Shown: positions 14,300 through 25,081 of the stretch, piece by piece
How positions within the stretch are numbered: the first letter of the stretch is position 1
Layout of the letters: every line of letters begins with the position of its first letter
Assembly: GCF_016839145.1 (NCBI RefSeq)
Contig: NZ_CP069302.1
Span: 62,001-126,000, forward strand
Reading direction: 5' to 3'
Length of the DNA stretch: 64,000 nucleotides
Source of the DNA: Shinella sp. PSBB067
Lineage (GTDB): Bacteria > Pseudomonadota > Alphaproteobacteria > Rhizobiales > Rhizobiaceae
Made by a program: the position numbers and the translations under genes
Notes under the pieces: model-generated
The model's database searches: none
What the model was told of the DNA's origin: nothing
The model's input: only the letters and a program-made list of their open reading frames with translations

Positions 14300-15412
14300 A
14301 TGGTACGCACGCTTGCAAGCACGCCGAAGGCCGACGGCTTTCGCGCGCCGGGGGAATTCGAGCCGAAGGCCGGCTGCTGGTTGATCTGGCCGGAGCGGCC
14401 GGACACCTGGCGGCTCGGCGCAAAGCCCGCCCAGAAGCTCTTCGCCAGGGTGGCAGCGGCGATCGCAGAGAGCGAGCCGGTCACCATCGCCGTCTCCGCC
14501 CGCCAGTGGCTCAACGCCCGCGCCATGCTGCCGGAAAGCGTGCGGCTCATCGAAATGACGACGGACGATTCCTGGCTGCGCGACAGCGGCCCGAACTTCG
14601 TCGTCAACGACCATGGCGAGGTCCGCGGCGTCGACTGGACCTTCAACGCCTATGGCGGCAATGACGGCGGCCTCTATTCGCCCTGGAACCTCGACGATCT
14701 CGCCGCCCGCAAGGTGCTGGAGACCGAGGGCATGGCCCGCTACCGCTCGCCGCTGATCGCCGAGGGCGGCGGCCTGCAATGCGACGGCGAGGGCACGCTG
14801 ATCACCACGGAACAGTGCCTCCTCAACCGCAACCGCAACGGCCATCTCGGCAAGGCGGCGGTGGAGCAGCAGCTCTGCGACTATCTTGGGCTGGAGCACG
14901 TCATCTGGCTGCCGCGCGGCTTCTGCTTCGACGAGACGGACGGCCATATCGACGACGTCTGCTGCTTCGTGCGGCCCGGCGTGGTGGCGCTGAGCTGGAC
15001 CGAGGATCGCGACGATCCGCAATACGAAATCGTGCGCGAGGTGGAGGAGGCGCTGCGCTCGGCCCGCGATGCGCGCGGCCGTTCGCTCGAGCTGCACCGC
15101 ATCCACCATCCCCGCCCCATCGAGATGACGGCGGAGGAGGCGGCGGGCGTCGATCAGGTCGACAGCACCTGGGCGCGCCCGGCCGGCAACCGCATCGCCG
15201 CCACCTATATCAACTACTATCCCGGCAATTCCGTCGTCGTCGTGCCGCAGTTCGACGACGAGAAGCTGGACCGTGCCGCGAAAGCCAAGCTCGCCGAGCT
15301 CTTCCCCGATCACCGCATCGTCGGCATCGACAATTCCCGTGAAATCCTGCTCGGCGGCGGCAATGTCGCCTGCATCACCCTGCCGGTCTATGCCGGCCAG
15401 ACGAAAGCCTGA
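14300..15412 (+). CDS. aguA: Agmatine deiminase
   Basis: 370 residues, ATG after GGGGGAACC. Agmatine deiminase of the guanidino-group-modifying family converts agmatine to N-carbamoylputrescine and ammonia. Visible catalytic features are DSWLRDSGP, IAEGGG, the FDETDGHIDDVCCF block with its Asp/His, and the nucleophile Cys358 in GGGNVACIT near the C-terminus. The full family length is present. The partner enzyme, N-carbamoylputrescine amidase, is at 17429-18307, and a polyamine-type binding protein lies 12 bp downstream. Confidence 0.95.
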   Translation: MVRTLASTPKADGFRAPGEFEPKAGCWLIWPERPDTWRLGAKPAQKLFARVAAAIAESEPVTIAVSARQWLNARAMLPESVRLIEMTTDDSWLRDSGPNFVVNDHGEVRGVDWTFNAYGGNDGGLYSPWNLDDLAARKVLETEGMARYRSPLIAEGGGLQCDGEGTLITTEQCLLNRNRNGHLGKAAVEQQLCDYLGLEHVIWLPRGFCFDETDGHIDDVCCFVRPGVVALSWTEDRDDPQYEIVREVEEALRSARDARGRSLELHRIHHPRPIEMTAEEAAGVDQVDSTWARPAGNRIAATYINYYPGNSVVVVPQFDDEKLDRAAKAKLAELFPDHRIVGIDNSREILLGGGNVACITLPVYAGQTKA

Positions 15413-15424
15413 CGGAGAAAAGCC

Positions 15425-16516
15425 ATGCGCAGAACGCTCGTCTCGATCCTCGCCCTTCTCGCCGCTTCGGGCGGCGCGTGGGCGCAGGAGGAAAAGGTCG
15501 TCAACGTCTACAACTGGTCGGACTATATCGCGCCCGACACGGCGGAGAAATTCGAGAAGGAGACCGGCATCCGCGTCGTCTACGACGTCTATGACGGCAA
15601 CGAGGTGCTGGAAACCAAGATGCTGACGGGCGGCTCGGGCTACGACGTCGTCTATCCCTCCGCCTATCCCTTCCTCAAGAACCAGGTGAAGGCCGGCGCC
15701 TTCCAGCCGCTCGACAAGGCGAAGCTTTCCAATATCGGCAGGCTCGATCCGCAGGCGCTCTCGCTGATCAGGGGCGCGGACCCGGACAATGCCTATGCCG
15801 TGCCCTACATGGCCGTCACCGACGGCGTCGGCTATAATATCGAGGCGGTCAAGCAGCGCATTGGCGACGCGCCCGTCGATTCGCTTGCCATGGTCTTCGA
15901 TCCCACCGTCGCGGAGAAATTCGCCGATTGCGGCGTGGCGATGATCGACGCGCCGGCCGAGATCATCCCCATGGCGATGAACTATCTCGGCATCGACCCG
16001 CATTCGACCAGCCCGGACGACATCGCCAAGGTCGAGGACCTGCTGCTGAAGGTGCGCCCGCACATCCGCTATTTCCATTCCTCGCGCTATATCAACGATC
16101 TCGCCAATGGCGACATCTGCGTCGTGCTCGGCTGGTCGGGCGATATCCTGCAGGCCAAGGCCCGGGCGGCCGAAAGCGAGAAGAAGCTGGAGATCGCCTA
16201 TTCCATCCCCAAGGAGGGCACGCTGATCAACTTCGACACCATGGCCGTGCCGAAGGATGCGCCGCATCCGGAAAACGCGCTCGCCTGGATCGACTTCAAC
16301 ATGCGCCCGGACATCGCCGCGGCCAATTCCAGCTATGTCTCCTACGCCAACCCGATCCCGGAATCGCTGCCGCTGATGGACCAGGCGGTGGCGAAGGACC
16401 CCGGCGTCTTCCCGCCGGATGACGTGAAGGCCAAGCTCTTCGTGGTGGAATCGAGCGATGCGAAGCTGCTGCGCCTGCAGAACCGCATGTGGACGCGCAT
16501 CGTCTCCGGACAATAG
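15425..16516 (+). CDS. Polyamine-type periplasmic binding protein (PotF/PotD-like)
   Basis: 363 residues with a signal peptide of about 20 (GGAWA-QE). The family start VVNVYNWSDYIAPDTAEKFEKETG is partly present as VYNWSDYI and FEKETGI, followed by YDVVYPSAYPF and VLGWSGD. PotF-like proteins bind putrescine or related amines for an ABC importer, but no permease or ATPase accompanies it. Its position directly after aguA suggests that it binds agmatine or putrescine, sharing a distant transporter or acting as a sensor. Confidence 0.88.
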   Translation: MRRTLVSILALLAASGGAWAQEEKVVNVYNWSDYIAPDTAEKFEKETGIRVVYDVYDGNEVLETKMLTGGSGYDVVYPSAYPFLKNQVKAGAFQPLDKAKLSNIGRLDPQALSLIRGADPDNAYAVPYMAVTDGVGYNIEAVKQRIGDAPVDSLAMVFDPTVAEKFADCGVAMIDAPAEIIPMAMNYLGIDPHSTSPDDIAKVEDLLLKVRPHIRYFHSSRYINDLANGDICVVLGWSGDILQAKARAAESEKKLEIAYSIPKEGTLINFDTMAVPKDAPHPENALAWIDFNMRPDIAAANSSYVSYANPIPESLPLMDQAVAKDPGVFPPDDVKAKLFVVESSDAKLLRLQNRMWTRIVSGQ

Positions 16517-16564
16517 GCTTGGTGAGGGGTTCCCGCCGATTTGAGGAAAACGGCGCGGCGTTTC

Positions 16565-16615
16565 CCTTCTCCCCGTTTACGGGGAGAAGGTGGCGGCAGC
16601 CGGATGAGGGGCCGT
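16565..16615 (+). repeat. Half copy of the RIME-like mosaic repeat (copy D)
   Basis: A perfect hairpin CCTTCTCCCCG-TTTA-CGGGGAGAAGG (16565-16590) is followed by GGCGGCAGCCGGATGAGGGG, matching the left half of copies A and C. It sits between the convergent binding-protein and LuxR genes. It encodes the last dozen codons of the LuxR gene, whose TAA stop comes from the TTTA loop. It may also act as the bidirectional terminator. Confidence 0.8.
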
Positions 16616-17353
16616 CCCGTTCTCCCGCACGGCGGCCATCAGCTCGACCTGGGAGTGGAGGCCGAGCTTGCGGTAGACGGTCTTGATGTGGTTGCGCACG
16701 GTGCCCGGGGCGATGGCGAGGTCGCGCGAGATCGTCTTGGCGCAGCCGCCGTCGATGAGGAGGAGGGCGATCTGGCGCTCGCGCGGGCTGAGGCCGGCAA
16801 GCGACAGGCGGCTTTCGCCGGGCGGGCGCCATTGCCGCCAGAGCCGTTCGAGCACGAGGCGGGTGGCGTCGGCCGTCGCCTCGGCGACCGCGAGATCCTC
16901 GGTGCCGAAGGGGCGGGCGCCGCGGCGGCGCAGATACGTGACGAAGCCGGCGGCGTTGCGGTCGAAGTTGAAGACGCCGGTGATCTCGTCGAAGCTGCCG
17001 GAGGGCTCGTAGAAGTCGCGGTAATAGGCGCTGGTGTGGAAATCGCCCTTGTCGAGCGCGGAGAGCGGCAGCAGGAAATCCTGCCGCGTGCCGGCGAAGA
17101 GGCGGAAGAACGGGTCCTGCCGGTACTTGCGGGTATCGTAGTTGCGGTTCCAGTGGTCGGGATCGCGCTCGTAGATGGTGATCGAGGCGCTGTCGCGCAG
17201 GTAGAGACCGATATAGACTTGGTCGGAGGCGACGAGATGGCGCGCGCCGGCCGTGAAATGGGCCGAGATCTCCTCGGGCAAGGTGGCGCTGACCGCAGCG
17301 GTGATGCCGCTGCTCCAGTGCCGGAGCTGCTCGAAGGTGAGGTCGGGTCGCAT
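16577..17353 (-). CDS. LuxR-family transcriptional regulator
   Basis: 258 residues. An N-terminal GAF-like or unclassified sensor region (about 1-180) precedes a LuxR helix-turn-helix near residues 190-240 (LSPRERQIALLL; GGCAKTISRDLAIAPGTVRNHIKTVYRKLGL in part). No phosphoacceptor receiver domain is present. The extreme C-terminus (APHPAAATFSP) is encoded by repeat copy D, so the native tail was probably replaced. Lying between aguA and aguB, divergent from aguB with 75 bp between starts, it is the best candidate regulator of agmatine catabolism. Confidence 0.88.
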   Translation of the reverse strand: MRPDLTFEQLRHWSSGITAAVSATLPEEISAHFTAGARHLVASDQVYIGLYLRDSASITIYERDPDHWNRNYDTRKYRQDPFFRLFAGTRQDFLLPLSALDKGDFHTSAYYRDFYEPSGSFDEITGVFNFDRNAAGFVTYLRRRGARPFGTEDLAVAEATADATRLVLERLWRQWRPPGESRLSLAGLSPRERQIALLLIDGGCAKTISRDLAIAPGTVRNHIKTVYRKLGLHSQVELMAAVRENGTAPHPAAATFSP

Positions 17354-17428
17354 GGGGACAGGATAGACGGGGCGGCCGGGAATTCAAGCCGGACGGCCCG
17401 GAAGATTGGCAACAGGGAGCGTTAGAGA

Positions 17429-18307
17429 ATGCGCAATGTCACGGTGGCCGCCACGCAGATGGCCTGCATCTGGGACGAGAAGGCCAATATCGAGCGGGCC
17501 GAAGGGCTCGTCCGGCAGGCGAAGGAGAAGGGGGCGGACCTGGTGCTGATCCAGGAACTCTTCGCCGCGCCCTATTTCTGCCAGGACCAGATCCACGAAT
17601 TCTTCGCGCTTGCCCATCCCTTCGAGGGCAATCCGCTGATCGCGCATTTTGCAAGGCTCGCCGCCGAGCTCGGCGTCGTGCTGCCGCTCAGCTATTTCGA
17701 GCGCGCCGGCCAGTCCTATTTCAACAGCCTCGCGGTGATCGACGCGGACGGCCGGGTGCTCGGCAATTACCGCAAGAGCCACCTGCCGGACGGGCCGGGC
17801 TATATGGAGAAGTTCTATTTCTCGCCCGGCGACACCGGTTTCAAGGTGTGGGACACGCGGGCCGGCCGCATCGGCGTCGGCATCTGCTGGGACCAGTGGT
17901 TCCCGGAGGCGGCGCGCTCCATGGCGCTGCAGGGCGCTGAAATCCTGCTCTATCCGACCGCCATCGGCTCCGAGCCGCACGATGCGAGCCTCGATTCCAG
18001 CGCGCATTGGCAGCGGGTGATGCAGGGCCATGCCGGGGCGAATCTCATGCCGCTGGTTGCTTCCAACCGCATCGGCACGGAAGAGGGTCGCAACGGCACG
18101 AGCATCACCTTCTACGGCTCGTCCTTCATCGCCGATCCCACCGGCGCCAAGGTGGCCGAGGCCGACCGGACGACGGAGACGGTGCTGACCGCCACCTTCG
18201 ACCTCGACGCCATCGCCCACCAGCGCCGCTCCTGGGGCGTCTTCCGCGACCGTCGCCCGGACCTCTACGGCCGCCTTGCGACGCTCGACGGCAGCCTGCC
18301 GGCCTGA
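17429..18307 (+). CDS. aguB: N-carbamoylputrescine amidase
   Basis: 292 residues, ATG with GGGAG upstream. This nitrilase-superfamily enzyme completes the route from agmatine to putrescine, carbon dioxide and ammonia. The catalytic triad is visible: Glu43 (IQELF), Lys116 (YRKSHLPDGPGY) and Cys153 (GICWDQWFPEAAR). The SSAHWQRVMQGHAGAN stretch is characteristic of the AguB group. The gene ends only 3 bp from the end of the convergent giant repeat gene, with no room for a terminator between them. Confidence 0.95.
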   Translation: MRNVTVAATQMACIWDEKANIERAEGLVRQAKEKGADLVLIQELFAAPYFCQDQIHEFFALAHPFEGNPLIAHFARLAAELGVVLPLSYFERAGQSYFNSLAVIDADGRVLGNYRKSHLPDGPGYMEKFYFSPGDTGFKVWDTRAGRIGVGICWDQWFPEAARSMALQGAEILLYPTAIGSEPHDASLDSSAHWQRVMQGHAGANLMPLVASNRIGTEEGRNGTSITFYGSSFIADPTGAKVAEADRTTETVLTATFDLDAIAHQRRSWGVFRDRRPDLYGRLATLDGSLPA

Positions 18308-18310
18308 CCC

Positions 18311-21300
18311 TCAGATCTCGAGATAGGACGAGATGATCGCCGCGATCTCGTTCTGCGGATCGGAGGCGGACGGAGGCGTCTGCGCCGGGCTTTCCGTGCT
18401 TGAGGTCGACGTTGTCCCGGTTCCCGATGCGGAGAAGCTCGATGCGCCGGGACCGCGGGGCAGCGCGTCGACCTGCGCCTGTGTCATCGCGGCGAGCTGG
18501 CCGGGCGTGAAGGCGTTCGCCTGCTCGTTGGTCAGGCCGGCGAGTGCTGCCGTGCTCAGCCCGGCGATCGCGCTCGTGCTGAGGGCGAGGATGTGCTCGA
18601 CCGAGAAGGTGCCGAGGTCGTCGGCGCCGAGTCCTGCCGCCTGCGTCGCCGTCATCGCGCCGACCTGCGCGGTCGAAAGCGTTGCCACCTGCGACGTGCT
18701 CATGGCGTTCACCTGGCTGTAGGTAAGCGCGGCGATCTGGCCCGTCGCCAGGGCCGCGATGCTGTTCGACGAGAGCGCGCCGATGACGGCCGGCGAGAGA
18801 CCCTTGATCGCGCCGGAGCTCATGGCCGCAAGCTCCTCGGTCGAGATCGCCTGCATCTGGCCCGGTGTCAGGCCGGCGGTGCCGGGCGTGCCCAGCGCGG
18901 CGATCTGCGCCATCGAGAGAGCGTCGATCTGCCCGGTCGAGAGCGCCGCGACCTGGGCGCTGCCGAGGCCGGAAATGGCACCCGTGCTCAAGGCGGCGAT
19001 CTCGGCCTCCGACAGGCTGGCCAGATAGGCGGGCGACAGGCCCTTGATGGCGCCAGAGCTGATTGCCGCGAGCTTGGACGTCGAGAACGTGTCGAGCGCT
19101 TCGCTCGAAAGGCCGCCGAGCGCCGCGGAGGTCAGCGCCGCGATCTGGCTGGCCGACAGGGCCTCGGCCTGCTCGAAGGTGAGGCCGGCGGCCTGTGTGC
19201 CGGTGAGGCCGGCGATGCCGTCCGCGCTGAGGGCCGCGATCTGGCCGGGCGTCAGCGCGGCAATGTCCCCGACGGTGAGCGCGGCCACCTGCCTGGAGGC
19301 GAGTGCATGGATCTGGGCCGTGGAAAGCGCTGCCGTCTGGCTCGGGCTGAGCGCACCGATCTGGCCCGTCGTCATGCCGCCGATCCCGGCGGGGCTGAGG
19401 GCCTCGATCTGTTCCGGCGTGAAGCCGGCAAGGATGGAGGTGGAAAGGCCGGCGATGGCCGCCGAGCCGATCGCCGCGATCTCACCTGTGGTGAACAGGG
19501 CGATGTCGCTCGCGTCGAAGGCGGCGATCTGGCGCGAGGTGAGGGCACCGATCTGCGTGGCGGTGAGCGCCTCGACCTGCTCGGCATTCAGCGCGACGAT
19601 CTGGTCGCTCGTCAGGCCGGAGACACCGGCCATGCTGAGGGCGGCGATCTGCGCGGTCGTCAGCGACGCGATCATGCCCGTCGACAGGCCGAGGATGGCC
19701 CGCGAGCCGATGGCGGCGATGTCGGCGGCCGAGAACAGGGCAAGGTCGTCGGCGCCGAACGCGGCGATCTGCTGCGAGGTCAGCGCGCCGACCTGCGTGT
19801 TGGTCAGCGCTTCGGCCTGGGCGGTCGAGAGCGCGGCGATCTGCTGGGTGCTGAGTGCGGCGACGCCGGCGGTGCTGAGCGCGGCGATCTGGTCCGGCGA
19901 CAGCGCGGCGATGCCGGCGGTGCCGAGGGCAGGCACCTGCGCGGAGCCGAGCGCTGCCATCTGGAGGCTGGTGAGGGCTTCCAGCTGGCTGTTGCCGAAG
20001 GCGCCTATCTGCACGCCCGTCAGGCCGGCTGCATTGATGGCGGCGACCTGGGCCGGCGTGAGGGCGGCGATCGCCGCCGTCGGCAGGCCGGCGACGGCAC
20101 GGGAGGTGATCGCGGCGATCTCGCCGGGCGTGAAGGTTTCGAGGTTCGTTGCGCTGAAGGCGGCGATCTGCGTCGCGGTGAGGGCGGCGATCTGCGTGCT
20201 CGTCAGCGCCTCGGCCTGGGCCTGCGAAAGGGCTCCGATCTGTGCCGAGGTCAGCCCGGCCACGCCTGCGGAGCCAAGGGCGGCGATCTGCGTGGGCGAG
20301 AGCGTCGCAATGTCGTCCGTGCCGAGTGCGGCGACCTGCTTGGAGCCGAGGGCGGCGACCTGCGCTGTCGTCAGCGCCTCGACCTGGGCTGTCGAGAGCG
20401 CGGCGATCTGGTCGCCCGTCATGCCGGAAAGCCCGGCCGGGCCGAGGGCGGCGATCTGGCTCGTCGTCAGCGAGGCGAGCATGCCCGTCGAAAGCCCCGC
20501 CATGGCGCCCGAGCTGATCGCCGCCATGTCGGCGACGGAGAAGGTGTCGAGCTTGGCCATATCGAGCGCGGCGATCTGGCGCGAGCTGAGGGCGGCGACC
20601 TGCGCCGGGGTGAGCGCTTCGGCCTGTGCCGTGGTGAACGCGGCGATCTGCTCGGGCGTGAGGCCGGAGACGGCGGCGGTGGCGAGGGCCGCGATCTGCG
20701 CGGGCGAGAGCGTGGCGATATAGTCCGTTCCGAGATTGCCGATCTGGCGGGCGTTGAGCGCGCTGACCTGGGCCGTCGTCAGCGCGTCGAGCTGGGCGCT
20801 GGTGAGGGCGGCGATCTGGCGGCTGCCCATCCCGCCGATGGCCGCGGTGCCGAGGGCGGCGACCTGCGCCGTCGAGAGGCCTGCGATGGCCGCGGTCGAG
20901 AGGCCGGCAATGGCGTCCGAGCCGATGGCGGCGATTTCGCGCGTCGCGAAGGTGGCGATGCCGTCGGCCGGGAAGGCGGCGAGCTGCGTGGCGCTGAGCG
21001 CGCCGATCTGGCTGGTGGTGAGGGCTTCGGCCTGCGCGATGCTGAGGGCGGCGATCTGCTTCGTCGTGAGCCCGCCGATGCTGCCCGCGCTGAGACCGGC
21101 GACCTGCGCCGTCGAAAGGGCGGCAAGGGCATCGGTCGAAAGGCCGGGCAGCGCGCCCGCGGTGATGGCGGCCATTTCCTGCACGGAGAAGGTCGCGATG
21201 TCGTCCGGTCCGAACGCGGCAAGCTGCGTCGAGCTCAACGCGCCTATCTGTGTCCGGGTGAGGGCCTCGGCCTGGGCCGTGCTCAGCGCCTCGATCTGCT

Positions 21301-24300
21301 GCGTGGTCATCGCCGCGATGGCGGAGGCGCTGAGGGCGGCGACCTGCGCGGTCGACAGCGAGGCGATCGTCGCCGGCGACAGGCCGCGGATGGCGCTTGA
21401 GCTGATCATCGCGATGTCCTTCGTGGAGAAGGTGGCGATTTCAGCGGTGCCGAATTTCGCGATCTGCTCGGAGTTCAGCGCACCGACCTGCGCGCTCGTC
21501 AGGGCTTCCGCCTGGCTGGTGCTGAGCACGGAAAGCTGCTGCGAGGTGAAGCCGGAAATGCTGCCCGCGTTCAGCGCTGCGATCTGCGCCGTCGTCAGGG
21601 ATGCGATCTGGACGGTGCTGAAGGCGGGGATCTGCGAGGCGGTGAGCGCAGCCATCTGCTTTGTGCCGAGCGCTGCGATCTGGTCGGTGTCGAGGGCGGC
21701 GATCTGGCTCGATGTGAGGCCGGAAACCCCGGACGCGCTGAGCGCGGCGATCTGGGCGTTGGTGAGCGCGGCGACGTCGGCGGGGTTCAGGGCCGCGATC
21801 TGGCCGGAGGAAAGCACCCCGATCTGGGCCGTCGTCAGGGCGGCGAGCTGGCTGGGGGCGAGCGCGCCGATCTGGTCCGGGCGCAGCCCGCCGATCGCCG
21901 AGGAGCTGAGATAGCCCATCTGCTCGGTGGAAAGGGCCTTGATGTCGTGGTCGAGCGCGCCGGCCTGCGCCGCTGTCAGCGCCTTGAGATGGACGGCGGA
22001 AAGCTGGCTCACCTGAACCGAGCTCAACGCCTCGATCTGGCCGGTGGCGAGGCTGGCGAAGGCGCTCGTGCTGAGGGCCGCGATCTGGGTGGCGGAAAGC
22101 GAGGCGAAGATGTCCGGTGCGATGCCGGAAACCGCGCCCCTGGAGAGCGCCGCGATCTGCGCGGCCGAGAGCACGCGCACGTCCTGCGGCTCGAGCGCGG
22201 CGACCTGCGCGGAGGTGAGGGCGTTGATCTGCGTGGTGGAGAACGCGGCGATCTGGGCGGTCGAGAGCGCTTCGATCTGCACGGAGGTCATGCCGGACAG
22301 CGTCGCGCGGCCGAGGGCGCTTATCTGGGCGAGGGAGAGCCCGGCGATCGCCTCGGCGCTGAGGCCTGCGACGGCCTTGCCGGTGATCGCGGCGATGTCC
22401 TGCGTCGAGAAGGTCGCAAGGTCGGCCGCGCTGAGGGCGGCAAGCTGGGCCGAGGTCAGGGACTTGACCTGTGTCGGCGACAGCGCCTCGACCTGGGCGG
22501 TGGTCAGGGCCTCGATCTGGTCGGGCGTCAGGCTGCCGACCGCGCCCGAGGAGAGGGCGGAAATATGCGCGGTCGTCAGCGAGGCGAGGAAGGCCGGCGT
22601 CATGCCGGCGACCTGCGCTGCCGACAGACCCGCGATCTGCGTGGTCGACAAGGCGGCGACCTGGGCGGACGACAGTCCGGCGAAGACGGCGCTGCCGAGG
22701 CCGGGCATGGCCTTCGCGCTGATCGCCGCCATGTCCGCCGTGGAGAAGGTCGCAATGCCCTCGGCGCTGATCGCCGTGATCTGCCGCGCGCTCATCCCGC
22801 GGATCTGGTCCGGCGTCAGCGCTTCGACCTGCTCCGTGCTGAGCACGCCGACCTGGGTGTTGGAAAGGGCCGCGATGACGGCGGGGCTGAGGGCGGCGAT
22901 CTGTTCGGGCGAGAAGGCGGCGATGGCGGATGTGGGAAGGCCCGCGATGGCCCTGCTGTTGATCGCGGCCATGTGGGCAGGCGAGAGCTGCGCGAGCGCC
23001 TCGCTGTTCATCGCGGCGATCTGCGCGGCATTCAGCGAGGCGAGCTGCGCCGGCGACAGCGCCTCGACCTGGTGGGCGCTCAGCGCGCGAATCTGGGTGG
23101 TCGTGAAGCCGCCGAGCGCGGTGGCGCCAAGGGCGCCGATCTGCTCGTCCGAAAGCTCGGTGATGACCGCGCTGGCGAGACCGGGAACGGCCTTGGCGGT
23201 GAGCGCGGCGATGTCTGCCGTCGAGAAGGTCGCGAAGGCGTCCGCAGAAAGGACGGCAAGCTGCGCGGCGGTCATCGCCTTTACCTGCGCGGGCGTGAGG
23301 GCCTCGACCTGTTCCACGTCGAGCGCTGCGACCTGCGCGGGCTTGAGGGCGGTGATCTGGCCGGTTGTCAGGGCTGCGATCTGGCCGGTGGTGAGGGCGG
23401 CGAGCGCCTGTGTGGTCAGTCCCGGAAGCGCGCTGTTCTGGATCGCGGCGATGTCGGCGCTGGAAAAGGTCTTGAGGGTATCGGGCGCGAGCGCGCGGAG
23501 CTGCACGGCGGACAGGACCTTGACCTGGGCCGGTGTGAAGGCCTCGACCTGGGTATCGTCGAGGAGGGCGAGCTGTTCCGTCTTGAGACCTGCAATCGCG
23601 GCCGGGCCGAGCGCGGCGATCTGCGTCGGCGTGAGGCCTGAAATGGCGTCGGAGGTGAGGCCTGCAATGGCGCTTGCGGAGAGGGCCGCAATGTCTGACG
23701 GCGAGAAGGTCGCGATGGCCTCGCCGTCGAGGGCCGCGGCCTGCTGGGCGGTGAACACCCGCACCTGCGCCGGCGTGAAGGCCTCGATCTGCTCGAGGCT
23801 CATGCTCTTGATCTGGACGGGCGTAAGCCCCTTCACCCCGGCGCTGCTCAGCGCCGCGATCTGGCCGGCGGAGAGGGCTTCGATGCTCTCCACGGAAAGG
23901 GCGGCGACCTGCTTGGCGTCGAGGACGGCGATCTGGGCGGGCGTGAGCGCGGCGACCTGCTCGGGCGTAAGCGCGGCGATGACCCCGGCGCCCAGTCCCC
24001 TGACGGTGTTGGGAGACAGGGCGGCGACCTTGCCGGCGGGCAGTTCCGCGAGGTCGTCGGCACTGAAGGCCCCGATCTGTGCGGCGGTCATGGCGGCGAT
24101 CTGCGCCGTCGTCAGCGCGGCCGTCTGTTCCGGCGTGAACGCGGCGATCTGGGCGGGTGTCATGCCCTGGATGGTCTTCACGCTGAGCGCGGCGACCTGG
24201 TCCGTCGACAGCTCGGCGATGGCGGCGGTGCCGAGCCCGGGCAGCGCCTTGCCGGAAATCGCCGCGATGTCCCCGGTCGAGAAGGTGACGAGGCCCTCGG

Positions 24301-25081
24301 GGCTGATGGCCGCGAGCTGCTGGGCGGAGAGCACCCTGACATGCGCGGGCGACAGGGCCTCGATCTGCTCCGGTTCGAGCGCGGCGATCTGCGCTGGGGC
24401 AAGACCCGTGATGGCGCTCGTGCTGAGCGCGGCGATCTGTGCTTCGGAGAAGGCCTTGACGGCCTCGGTGCTGAGCGCGGCGATCTGTGCGGGCTTCAGC
24501 AGCGCGACCTGCGCCGTCGTCATCGCCTCGATCTGATCGGGCGTGAGGGCGCCGGACTGCGAGGCGGTGAGGCCGGCGAGGCTGAGCGGGGCCAGTGCAC
24601 CGATCTGTTCGGCCGACAGCACCGCGATGGCCGCGGTGCTCAATCCCTGCACCGCCTTGTAGCTGATCGCCGCCATGTCCTGGGTCGAGAAGGTTTCGAG
24701 GTCTTCCGGATCGAGCGCGGCGAGCTGGGCGGAGCTCAGCGCCTGCACCTGCGAGGCCGTCAGCGCCTCGGCCTGGTCGGACGAGAACGTGCCGATCTGG
24801 CCGGTGGTCAGGCTCTCGATCTGGCCGTCGGTATATTTGTTGAGGGCGCCGATCTGGTCCAGCGACAGGCCGACGATCGCGTTCTGCGCGATGGCGCCGA
24901 TCTGCCCGGAGCTGAGGATCTCGATATCCTCGACCTCCAGGGCGGCGATCTGCCTGGATGAAAAGGCGCCGATCTGGCCGGTGGAGAGGGAGGCGACGTC
25001 GTCCGTCGACCAGTCCCGGATCGTCGCATCGGAAAGCTGCCGGATCTGGCTGATGCTGAGCGAGGAAACGATCGACGTCAT
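18311..25081 (-). CDS. Giant octapeptide-repeat protein of unknown function
   Basis: 2,256 residues from the ATG at 25081, chosen over an upstream ATG because AGGAC precedes it by 8 bases. From about residue 8 to 2208 the protein is an uninterrupted run of roughly 275 octapeptides of pattern hydrophobic-Leu-[ST]-x-x-[QAD]-[IVL]-x, typified by ALSTAQIA or ALTPAQIA. A landmark pair (TFSTxDIA-AISxxAxx, then GLST) recurs 16 times at whole-octad spacings. Charged residues are few, Phe is largely confined to landmarks, and I see no cysteine. The tail is Ser/Thr/Pro-rich and ends NEIAAIISSYLEI. There is no signal peptide, RTX motif or recognisable enzyme domain. Function is unknown; a structural or surface role is only a guess. 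Confidence 0.85.
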   Translation of the reverse strand: MTSIVSSLSISQIRQLSDATIRDWSTDDVASLSTGQIGAFSSRQIAALEVEDIEILSSGQIGAIAQNAIVGLSLDQIGALNKYTDGQIESLTTGQIGTFSSDQAEALTASQVQALSSAQLAALDPEDLETFSTQDMAAISYKAVQGLSTAAIAVLSAEQIGALAPLSLAGLTASQSGALTPDQIEAMTTAQVALLKPAQIAALSTEAVKAFSEAQIAALSTSAITGLAPAQIAALEPEQIEALSPAHVRVLSAQQLAAISPEGLVTFSTGDIAAISGKALPGLGTAAIAELSTDQVAALSVKTIQGMTPAQIAAFTPEQTAALTTAQIAAMTAAQIGAFSADDLAELPAGKVAALSPNTVRGLGAGVIAALTPEQVAALTPAQIAVLDAKQVAALSVESIEALSAGQIAALSSAGVKGLTPVQIKSMSLEQIEAFTPAQVRVFTAQQAAALDGEAIATFSPSDIAALSASAIAGLTSDAISGLTPTQIAALGPAAIAGLKTEQLALLDDTQVEAFTPAQVKVLSAVQLRALAPDTLKTFSSADIAAIQNSALPGLTTQALAALTTGQIAALTTGQITALKPAQVAALDVEQVEALTPAQVKAMTAAQLAVLSADAFATFSTADIAALTAKAVPGLASAVITELSDEQIGALGATALGGFTTTQIRALSAHQVEALSPAQLASLNAAQIAAMNSEALAQLSPAHMAAINSRAIAGLPTSAIAAFSPEQIAALSPAVIAALSNTQVGVLSTEQVEALTPDQIRGMSARQITAISAEGIATFSTADMAAISAKAMPGLGSAVFAGLSSAQVAALSTTQIAGLSAAQVAGMTPAFLASLTTAHISALSSGAVGSLTPDQIEALTTAQVEALSPTQVKSLTSAQLAALSAADLATFSTQDIAAITGKAVAGLSAEAIAGLSLAQISALGRATLSGMTSVQIEALSTAQIAAFSTTQINALTSAQVAALEPQDVRVLSAAQIAALSRGAVSGIAPDIFASLSATQIAALSTSAFASLATGQIEALSSVQVSQLSAVHLKALTAAQAGALDHDIKALSTEQMGYLSSSAIGGLRPDQIGALAPSQLAALTTAQIGVLSSGQIAALNPADVAALTNAQIAALSASGVSGLTSSQIAALDTDQIAALGTKQMAALTASQIPAFSTVQIASLTTAQIAALNAGSISGFTSQQLSVLSTSQAEALTSAQVGALNSEQIAKFGTAEIATFSTKDIAMISSSAIRGLSPATIASLSTAQVAALSASAIAAMTTQQIEALSTAQAEALTRTQIGALSSTQLAAFGPDDIATFSVQEMAAITAGALPGLSTDALAALSTAQVAGLSAGSIGGLTTKQIAALSIAQAEALTTSQIGALSATQLAAFPADGIATFATREIAAIGSDAIAGLSTAAIAGLSTAQVAALGTAAIGGMGSRQIAALTSAQLDALTTAQVSALNARQIGNLGTDYIATLSPAQIAALATAAVSGLTPEQIAAFTTAQAEALTPAQVAALSSRQIAALDMAKLDTFSVADMAAISSGAMAGLSTGMLASLTTSQIAALGPAGLSGMTGDQIAALSTAQVEALTTAQVAALGSKQVAALGTDDIATLSPTQIAALGSAGVAGLTSAQIGALSQAQAEALTSTQIAALTATQIAAFSATNLETFTPGEIAAITSRAVAGLPTAAIAALTPAQVAAINAAGLTGVQIGAFGNSQLEALTSLQMAALGSAQVPALGTAGIAALSPDQIAALSTAGVAALSTQQIAALSTAQAEALTNTQVGALTSQQIAAFGADDLALFSAADIAAIGSRAILGLSTGMIASLTTAQIAALSMAGVSGLTSDQIVALNAEQVEALTATQIGALTSRQIAAFDASDIALFTTGEIAAIGSAAIAGLSTSILAGFTPEQIEALSPAGIGGMTTGQIGALSPSQTAALSTAQIHALASRQVAALTVGDIAALTPGQIAALSADGIAGLTGTQAAGLTFEQAEALSASQIAALTSAALGGLSSEALDTFSTSKLAAISSGAIKGLSPAYLASLSEAEIAALSTGAISGLGSAQVAALSTGQIDALSMAQIAALGTPGTAGLTPGQMQAISTEELAAMSSGAIKGLSPAVIGALSSNSIAALATGQIAALTYSQVNAMSTSQVATLSTAQVGAMTATQAAGLGADDLGTFSVEHILALSTSAIAGLSTAALAGLTNEQANAFTPGQLAAMTQAQVDALPRGPGASSFSASGTGTTSTSSTESPAQTPPSASDPQNEIAAIISSYLEI

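Follow-up and report, generated by a model that had tools for sequence, protein, structure and literature searches.

Solenoid proteins of the ARM/HEAT type, such as importin alpha and beta-catenin, are built on a repeat of about 30-40 residues (PMC10035497), whereas the protein described in this study, encoded in a 64-kb window of Shinella DNA (i.e., the whole stretch of 64,000 nucleotides that was analysed), repeats an octad. The same paper presents mesothelin as a right-handed solenoid made up of 24 short helices, found at the cell surface and carrying glycans (PMC10035497). This protein (7ued, 8cx3) is the best PDB match to the predicted fold, with a Foldseek E-value of 3.2e-5 and a probability of 1.00, but with a query-normalised TM-score of just 0.24, and it is an irregular, disulphide-bonded animal protein of fewer than 300 residues, the likeness being one of fold.

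A likeness in sequence is provided by HeliScrew4 (PDB 9zem, 120 aa), which was matched with E-values of 1.1e-16 against the single sequence and 9.4e-32 against a profile, and whose octads align in register with those of the window protein over 109 residues. Its name, the only basis of this reading, suggests a designed protein. It is far shorter, and its position 4 is mostly Pro and its position 5 mostly Glu/Asp, whereas Ser/Thr predominates at position 4 of the natural proteins. It was not among the fold-search matches listed, from a library that ends at 2026-04-08, but this absence does not point to a different fold.

The same octad is found in the Pfam family PF20080 (ALTTAQ_rpt), which matches the window protein with 1,095.3 bits over 80 stretches, against a curated cut-off of 26.4 bits, although the Pfam model describes a stretch of 38 residues, and the unit here is of eight residues, with a screw turn of 27 residues. 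The window protein is a member of this catalogued family, for which no functional study was found; a search of the open-licence literature for ALTTAQ, PF20080, and HeliScrew4 returned neither a recorded function nor a paper. The initial annotation had proposed a protein of no known family and an undescribed fold, and this part of it was overturned, given that the PF20080 match (1,095 bits) and PDB 9zem, with the same octad, rule out an undescribed family. A strong match to a repeat family does exist, then, and it is to a catalogued family with no functional characterisation found. What is new here is the screw order of the octads and the link with GT41.

The OGT/SPINDLY and FlmG systems resemble this one in that a TPR-bearing GT41 gene adjoins many of the ALTTAQ relatives. 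FlmG is reported to modify flagellins in Caulobacter (PMC7591256), and an O-GlcNAc system has been described in Thermobaculum (PMC4683255). The substrates of FlmG are flagellins, whereas the ALTTAQ proteins are putative substrates, on the basis of gene neighbourhood. Overall, we give an even chance to the reading of the window protein as a giant exported, O-glycosylated surface screw rod, in which the fold is strongly predicted by the models, and both the export and the sugar are proposed from the genomic context of the relatives.

The octad repeat and its predicted fold

The ALTTAQ-repeat gene occupies positions 18311..25081 of the minus strand, as an open reading frame with its ATG at 25081 and its stop codon at 18311-18313, which encodes 2,256 residues. 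The assignment is based on the reading frame, the Pfam match over 80 stretches, and the Shinella orthologues, and the start codon coincides with the annotated starts of the Shinella and Rhizobium orthologues (MTS...). A scan for promoters and terminators 5' of the gene found none.

In a phase-tracking parse of the whole chain, 277 stretches were exactly eight residues long, including a few in the tail, and the parse scored 1,837, compared with at most 35 for 20 shuffles that preserved the composition. Before residue 2207, the register is interrupted just three times, at residues 82, 1047, and 1685, with tail breaks at 2208 and 2235. The run of octads is thus confirmed as real and well placed, and the extent given in the initial annotation, about 275 octads from residue 8 to 2208, is accurate to within a few residues in this parse. 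The octad solenoid was accordingly assigned to residues 7-2207 (18461..25063, minus strand; about 275 octads), using the parse, the AF2 models, and the phase-locked super-period described below. The make-up of the octad is A/G - L/F - S/T - T/P/S/A - x - Q - I/V/L - A, the commonest residues in the window protein being ALSTAQIA, and ALTTAQ forms the first six residues in 50 of the 78 proteins tabulated, the window protein included. Self-identity is at its maximum at lags of 8, 16, and 24 residues, and also at 80, 56, and 136 residues.

The AF2 models of residues 1-416 (mean pLDDT 92, pTM 0.82) and 1857-2256 (mean pLDDT 89, pTM 0.79) both present one short helix in nearly every octad and no strands, which strongly predicts that each octad is a short helix within one continuous solenoid. 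This agrees with the short-helix, fine-solenoid fold suggested initially, and disorder over the entire repeat region was not found. The exclusion of RTX, pentapeptide, TPR, and TAL repeats also holds, as none of these families appears among the 11 Pfam matches down to an E-value of 10, and ARM and HEAT are equally absent from those 11. In sum, the earlier interpretation stands for the short-helix solenoid and the excluded families, and falls for the unknown family and fold.

Other candidate relationships were rejected by judgement. The Pfam matches to CAAP1 (57.6 bits, none of its stretches being significant by itself) and Sigma70_r4_2 (39.6 bits, in one stretch) are above their cut-offs, and were taken as artefacts of repeats or composition. 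A relationship with LRR proteins was suggested by weak PDB matches with a matching spacing, which were considered to be matches of periodicity, both AF2 models being devoid of strands. In NCBIfam, no match over a cut-off was found for the window protein, and PHROG 15773, which does match it, has no function assigned.

The solenoid is followed by a variable linker, predicted to be disordered (residues 2208-2243; 18353..18460, minus strand), in which the pLDDT is below 50 over residues 2218-2244 (362-388 of the C-terminal model). Among the four Shinella sequences, including that of the window, the pairwise identity of this linker is 0.36, in comparison with 0.74 for the last 13 residues. These form a conserved C-terminal stretch (residues 2244-2256; 18314..18352, minus strand), defined by AF2, conservation, and the similar ends of relatives, in which a helix is predicted with low confidence (at about residues 2243-2253, pLDDT of about 43-55), and which is a candidate export signal or end cap. 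The chain ends of the Rhizobium, Pseudorhizobium, and Thioclava copies are similar to it, and those of Cereibacter, Rhodovastum, Niveispirillum, and Asaia have another short motif.

Screw order and evolution of the octads

Taken over all residues, the spectrum of the window protein has its maximum at 3.356 octads (26.8 residues), a height that was reached by none of 200 shuffles of the octad order. Gly at position 1 has its peak at 3.359 octads, with a power of 25.8, against 12.8 in the best of 1,000 shuffles, and the charged position 5 peaks at 3.353 octads. The phase of Gly remains within -58 to -87 degrees across five overlapping segments along the chain, and that of position 5 drifts more, from -121 to -73 degrees. 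Given this phase-locked super-period of about 3.36 octads, the whole chain probably forms a single screw with about 82 turns, at some 3.36-3.4 octads (27 residues) per turn, a number of turns that comes from the order of the sequence, with the AF2 models covering residues 1-416 and 1857-2256. With a rise of about 1 nm per turn, the full-length protein would be a rigid rod some 80 nm long. The 80-residue module would then arise because ten octads make three turns. If so, helical pitch may be readable from the sequence alone, which would be helpful for the design of very long helical rods.

The super-period was also surveyed in 77 proteins with at least 80 octads, including the window protein, with a peak being accepted when it exceeded 1.2 times the best of 20 shuffles. 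Such a peak was found in 74 of the 77, in 47 of them at 3.33-3.44 octads. By arithmetic, 18 further peaks at 2.41-2.455 octads and five at 5.44-5.68 octads are aliased harmonics of 3.39, which leaves four peaks with no explanation (3.523, 4.652, 4.66, and 4.733 octads), and three proteins (L019, L061, and L071) with no clear peak. The strongest octad repeat lags, averaged over 72 proteins, are 17, 34, 27, 44, 51, 10, 24, and 7 octads, which at 3.39 octads per turn correspond to 5.01, 10.03, 7.96, 12.98, 15.04, 2.95, 7.08, and 2.06 turns. When a period was fitted on half of these 72 proteins (3.400), the best lags of the other half were 0.052 turns off a whole number, against a chance expectation of 0.252 turns and with none of 20,000 null draws as good, although this held-out figure is not a clean probability, given that the proteins are related, and both relatedness and block duplication inflate such figures.

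Plain block duplication was considered as the sole cause of the super-period, and was rejected, as the block lengths (7, 10, 17, 24, 27, 34, and 44 octads) are themselves near whole turns and the split-half period held. The duplication of 17-octad blocks, which would also give lines at 17/5, 17/7, and 17/3, is nevertheless part of the cause. The proximity of the lags to whole turns is likely due to the survival of those duplications that keep the faces of one screw aligned.

The four Shinella sequences, that of the window and three others, are collinear (2,256-2,268 aa), with the window protein being 64-74% identical to the others and with dN/dS values of 0.31-0.39 for the three orthologues of 2,261-2,268 aa. 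The orthologues of Rhizobium ACO-34A and R. daejeonense (2,303 aa) have approximately 50% identity to the window protein, and the gaps in the alignment of six sequences are of 1-8, 17, and 24 residues. When each stretch was compared with all those of an orthologue, the positional partner ranked first for 228 of 270 stretches against one strain of S. zoogloeoides, for 159/270 and 134/270 against two further Shinella sequences, and for 17 of 267 against Rhizobium ACO-34A. Judging from these alignments, octad-by-octad orthology is clear for near relatives only.

These data bear on the reading of the gene as a repeat expansion of little function, kept by slippage or recombination, which would account for the simple repetitive composition, the similarity of the octads within the protein, and the low positional scores in the two further Shinella sequences and Rhizobium ACO-34A. 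Such an expansion is highly improbable, given the collinearity and dN/dS values of the Shinella copies, the 228 positional best matches with the S. zoogloeoides strain, and a screw phase that is maintained along the entire chain.

Distribution, surroundings, and putative export

Homologues were found in 55 of 72,556 plasmid records, 39 of the 55 being from Rhizobium, Shinella, or Cereibacter, and they are annotated as "hypothetical protein" or, in Cereibacter, as "heme utilization protein". The closest of these plasmid records are from Shinella, and the window is thus probably part of a secondary replicon of Shinella type. ALTTAQ proteins were detected in 6 of 289 sampled Alphaproteobacteria (E 1e-6) and in 15 of the 121 Rhizobiaceae genomes sampled (E 1e-10), the genome of the window being counted in both. 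Many contigs of Pseudomonas and the Burkholderiales also carry them, with at least 265 relatives among the candidates, of which 65 distinct loci were kept, a sample that was ranked by likeness to a Pseudomonas query and leans to the Pseudomonas type. The longest reading frame reaches at least 6,254 aa (L062, cut at one end). A phage origin was discarded, as relatives were present in one of 50,697 phage records and, among viral contigs, numbered three with one query and none with another. The comparison of viral model structures with the fold of the window protein gave weak, mixed matches only.

The neighbours of the window gene are a carbon-nitrogen hydrolase, a peptidyl-arginine/agmatine-deiminase-type enzyme, solute-binding proteins, a LuxR-type regulator, and flavin oxidoreductases. 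The adjacent hydrolase is named N-carbamoylputrescine amidase in the annotation of a relative. A polyamine-type group, made up of the agmatine-deiminase-like gene, a solute-binding protein, the LuxR-type regulator, and the carbon-nitrogen hydrolase, lies at 14300-18304 of the window. In Shinella zoogloeoides UPHL-collab-1 (L014:10478-11811), an RNA polymerase sigma factor and an anti-sigma factor, possibly a regulator, are found directly upstream of the orthologue.

The octads start at residue 7 and would therefore leave no room for a Sec signal. Genes of a type I ABC transporter and HlyD accompany the ALTTAQ gene at 12 of 74 loci, including both sources of the queries, and the pair was absent at the other 62, in a scan from which seven plasmid loci (L121-L127) were excluded and in which many loci are cut by contig ends. 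The Cereibacter and Pseudomonas plasmid copies adjoin type I secretion genes, a TPR protein, and sugar-related genes. On the other hand, no ABC and HlyD pair over the thresholds was found in the 64-kb window, nor was a type I secretion pair adjacent to the three other Shinella copies. Scans of the C-termini of four relatives recovered no known type I signal domain, and searches with the Pseudomonas C-terminus as the query recovered no known secretion domain. In the host genome, three PrtD-type genes scored above the cut-off, and are candidates for the type I ABC transporter. In Massilia (L101:16760-18892), the gene next after ALTTAQ encodes an ABC transporter that carries a C39-peptidase-like domain, whereas the transporter on the Pseudomonas plasmid belongs to the PrtD type.

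Other copies lie in a flagellar context. The paralogue in the host genome and the Pseudorhizobium and Rhodovastum copies are found among flagellin or flagellar export genes, where the GT41 could serve flagellin. This arrangement is what would be expected if the protein were an accessory of the flagellum (a sheath, cap, or filament coat), exported together with the flagellins and glycosylated by the same GT41. Such an accessory is very unlikely, as flagellar matches were confined to 4 of the 74 loci, including the two from which the flagellar queries were taken, and the window gene itself is surrounded by polyamine-type and flavin-oxidoreductase genes. The likeness of the N-terminal "MTSI" to flagellin was not used as evidence, since a Pseudomonas copy linked to type I secretion starts similarly.

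GT41 neighbours and putative glycosylation

The neighbourhood of the ALTTAQ genes was surveyed with an HMM built from five GT41 neighbours, including their TPR part, with matches of more than 100 bits being counted, and the weakest match counted as near reached 231 bits (L086). The survey comprised 81 loci, 78 of them with an ORF that passes the octad criterion (L082, L099, and L109 have no such ORF), and the counts exclude 3-kb pieces (L001-L010 and L021-L045) and loci L128-L131. A GT41 (SPINDLY/OGT-type) gene was found within 6 kb in 21 of the 31 loci with both flanks of at least 3 kb, with none near in the remaining ten, and in 36 of the 69 loci with at least one such flank. In 25 of all 37 loci with a GT41 gene near, it lies downstream, on the same strand, within approximately 0.4 kb. 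Pfam PF13844 was above its cut-off in all seven neighbours scanned (L011, L018, L046, L060, L083, L122, and L124), which are relatives of the TPR proteins of the Cereibacter and Pseudomonas plasmids, the L046 neighbour being 76% identical to the Pseudomonas plasmid TPR protein. One neighbour was compared with the N-glycosyltransferase kind, to which it does not belong, scoring 23.5 bits against an NCBIfam cut-off of 1,000.

At the genome level, GT41 was found in 12 of the 15 ALTTAQ-positive genomes of the Rhizobiaceae sample, against 2 of 16 negative genomes tested (p 2.4e-4), these 16 being drawn from the 20 listed among 106 negatives (G289, G293, G294, and G308 were left out). In nine of the 15 positives, it is on the ALTTAQ contig, within about 7 kb, and in three no GT41 was detected anywhere in the genome. 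Five of the six ALTTAQ-positive genomes in the alphaproteobacterial sample have a GT41, within about 5 kb in four of them, as do 5 of the 20 negatives tested (of 283). Among 14 well-known control genomes, GT41 is present in two, and one of these, Caulobacter vibrioides, has ALTTAQ. The coupling with GT41 is thus strong at the level of the family, and the presence of GT41 beside the relatives suggests a sugar-coated surface rod.

This coupling also bears on a cytoplasmic alternative, in which the solenoid would be a scaffold that binds partners along its groove in the manner of ARM/HEAT proteins, with the nearby GT41 modifying other targets. This scaffold is unlikely, given the type I secretion genes at 12 of the 74 loci, the proximity of GT41 at 21 of the 31 well-flanked loci, and the reading frames of at least 6,254 aa (L062), which would fit exported fibres better.

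Under the preferred reading of an exported and glycosylated rod, the octads, as short helices, would wind into a continuous solenoid of about 82 turns, a step that is strongly predicted, and the Ser/Thr at octad positions 3 and 4 would form ladders along it. A cytoplasmic GT41 would add O-linked sugars to some of these residues while the chain is unfolded, and export of the chain would not involve a Sec signal and would most likely proceed through type I secretion that reads the conserved C-terminal stretch. Once outside, it would refold into a sugar-coated rod, stalk, or sheath, which may contribute to adhesion, biofilm, or shielding, and whose glycan, and hence surface chemistry, may vary by species.

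Glycosylation would be the weakest step for the window copy. No GT41 gene was found in the window, nor in the flanking sequence read of the three other Shinella copies, and the host genome (5.77 Mb) has a single GT41 gene, 0.3-0.4 kb from a second ALTTAQ gene, so that GT41 would have to act in trans. This second gene (716 aa; L011:8125-10275, contig C2) is part of a flagellar cluster, where it is flanked by flagellin genes, a Glf-like gene, and the sole GT41 gene, and its octads contain much Lys/Asp, and little Ser/Thr at position 4.

Position 4 was compared using one protein per locus, the longest by the octad criterion, except for L011 and L121-L127, which were set by hand. The median Ser/Thr fraction was 0.82 in the loci with GT41 near (n=37) and 0.71 in those without (n=10, both flanks), with p 0.77, and the fraction is 0.14 in the paralogue that adjoins the sole GT41 gene of the host. 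Given both the lack of a difference and this low value, position 4 is unlikely to be the general GT41 acceptor, and was rejected as such. The fraction is 0.47-0.50 in the four Shinella copies, with 18-19% Pro (0.47 and 0.19, respectively, in the window protein), and 0.78-0.80 in the two Rhizobium orthologues (ACO-34A and R. daejeonense), which have a GT41 250 bp upstream, on the same strand, confirmed by Pfam for one of them.

The low Ser/Thr content of the window protein at position 4 hints at lost glycosylation, i.e., at a rod that is exported but unglycosylated in Shinella, the link with GT41 having been lost for this copy. This agrees with the lack of GT41 beside all four Shinella copies read and with their position-4 composition in comparison with that of the Rhizobium orthologues. 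It is still distinctly unlikely, as the genome retains one GT41 gene, beside the paralogue, and GT41 proximity has no general relation to position 4.

For the family as a whole, a more tentative proposal, on the doubtful side of even, is that ALTTAQ proteins are dedicated substrates of the bacterial SPINDLY/OGT-type GT41, as giant rods, each one continuous screw (about 3.4 octads to the turn, with the phase locked for tens to hundreds of turns), that present ladders of sugared Ser/Thr at the surface of the cell. To our knowledge, the natural targets of bacterial GT41 enzymes are mostly unknown. If true, the proposal would provide a concrete substrate for these enzymes in the Rhizobiaceae, Rhodobacterales, Burkholderiales, Pseudomonas, and others, and a class of bacterial surface glycoproteins whose alpha-solenoid unit has just eight residues.

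Sugar genes are also present near some of the loci, including glf, gmd, glycosyltransferases, methyltransferases, and a sulfotransferase. In two Rhizobiaceae plasmids (L018:14750-19286 and L124:6489-11036), a block formed by GT41, an uncharacterised protein, and glf adjoins the ALTTAQ gene, and the middle protein of the L018 block has a Pfam match to Methyltransf_FA. This combination of GT41 and glf (UDP-galactopyranose mutase) hints at a glycan that contains galactofuranose. Finally, in Sphaerotilus and Leptothrix (L083, L095, and L102), which are sheath formers, a GT41-type gene comes immediately after the ALTTAQ gene.
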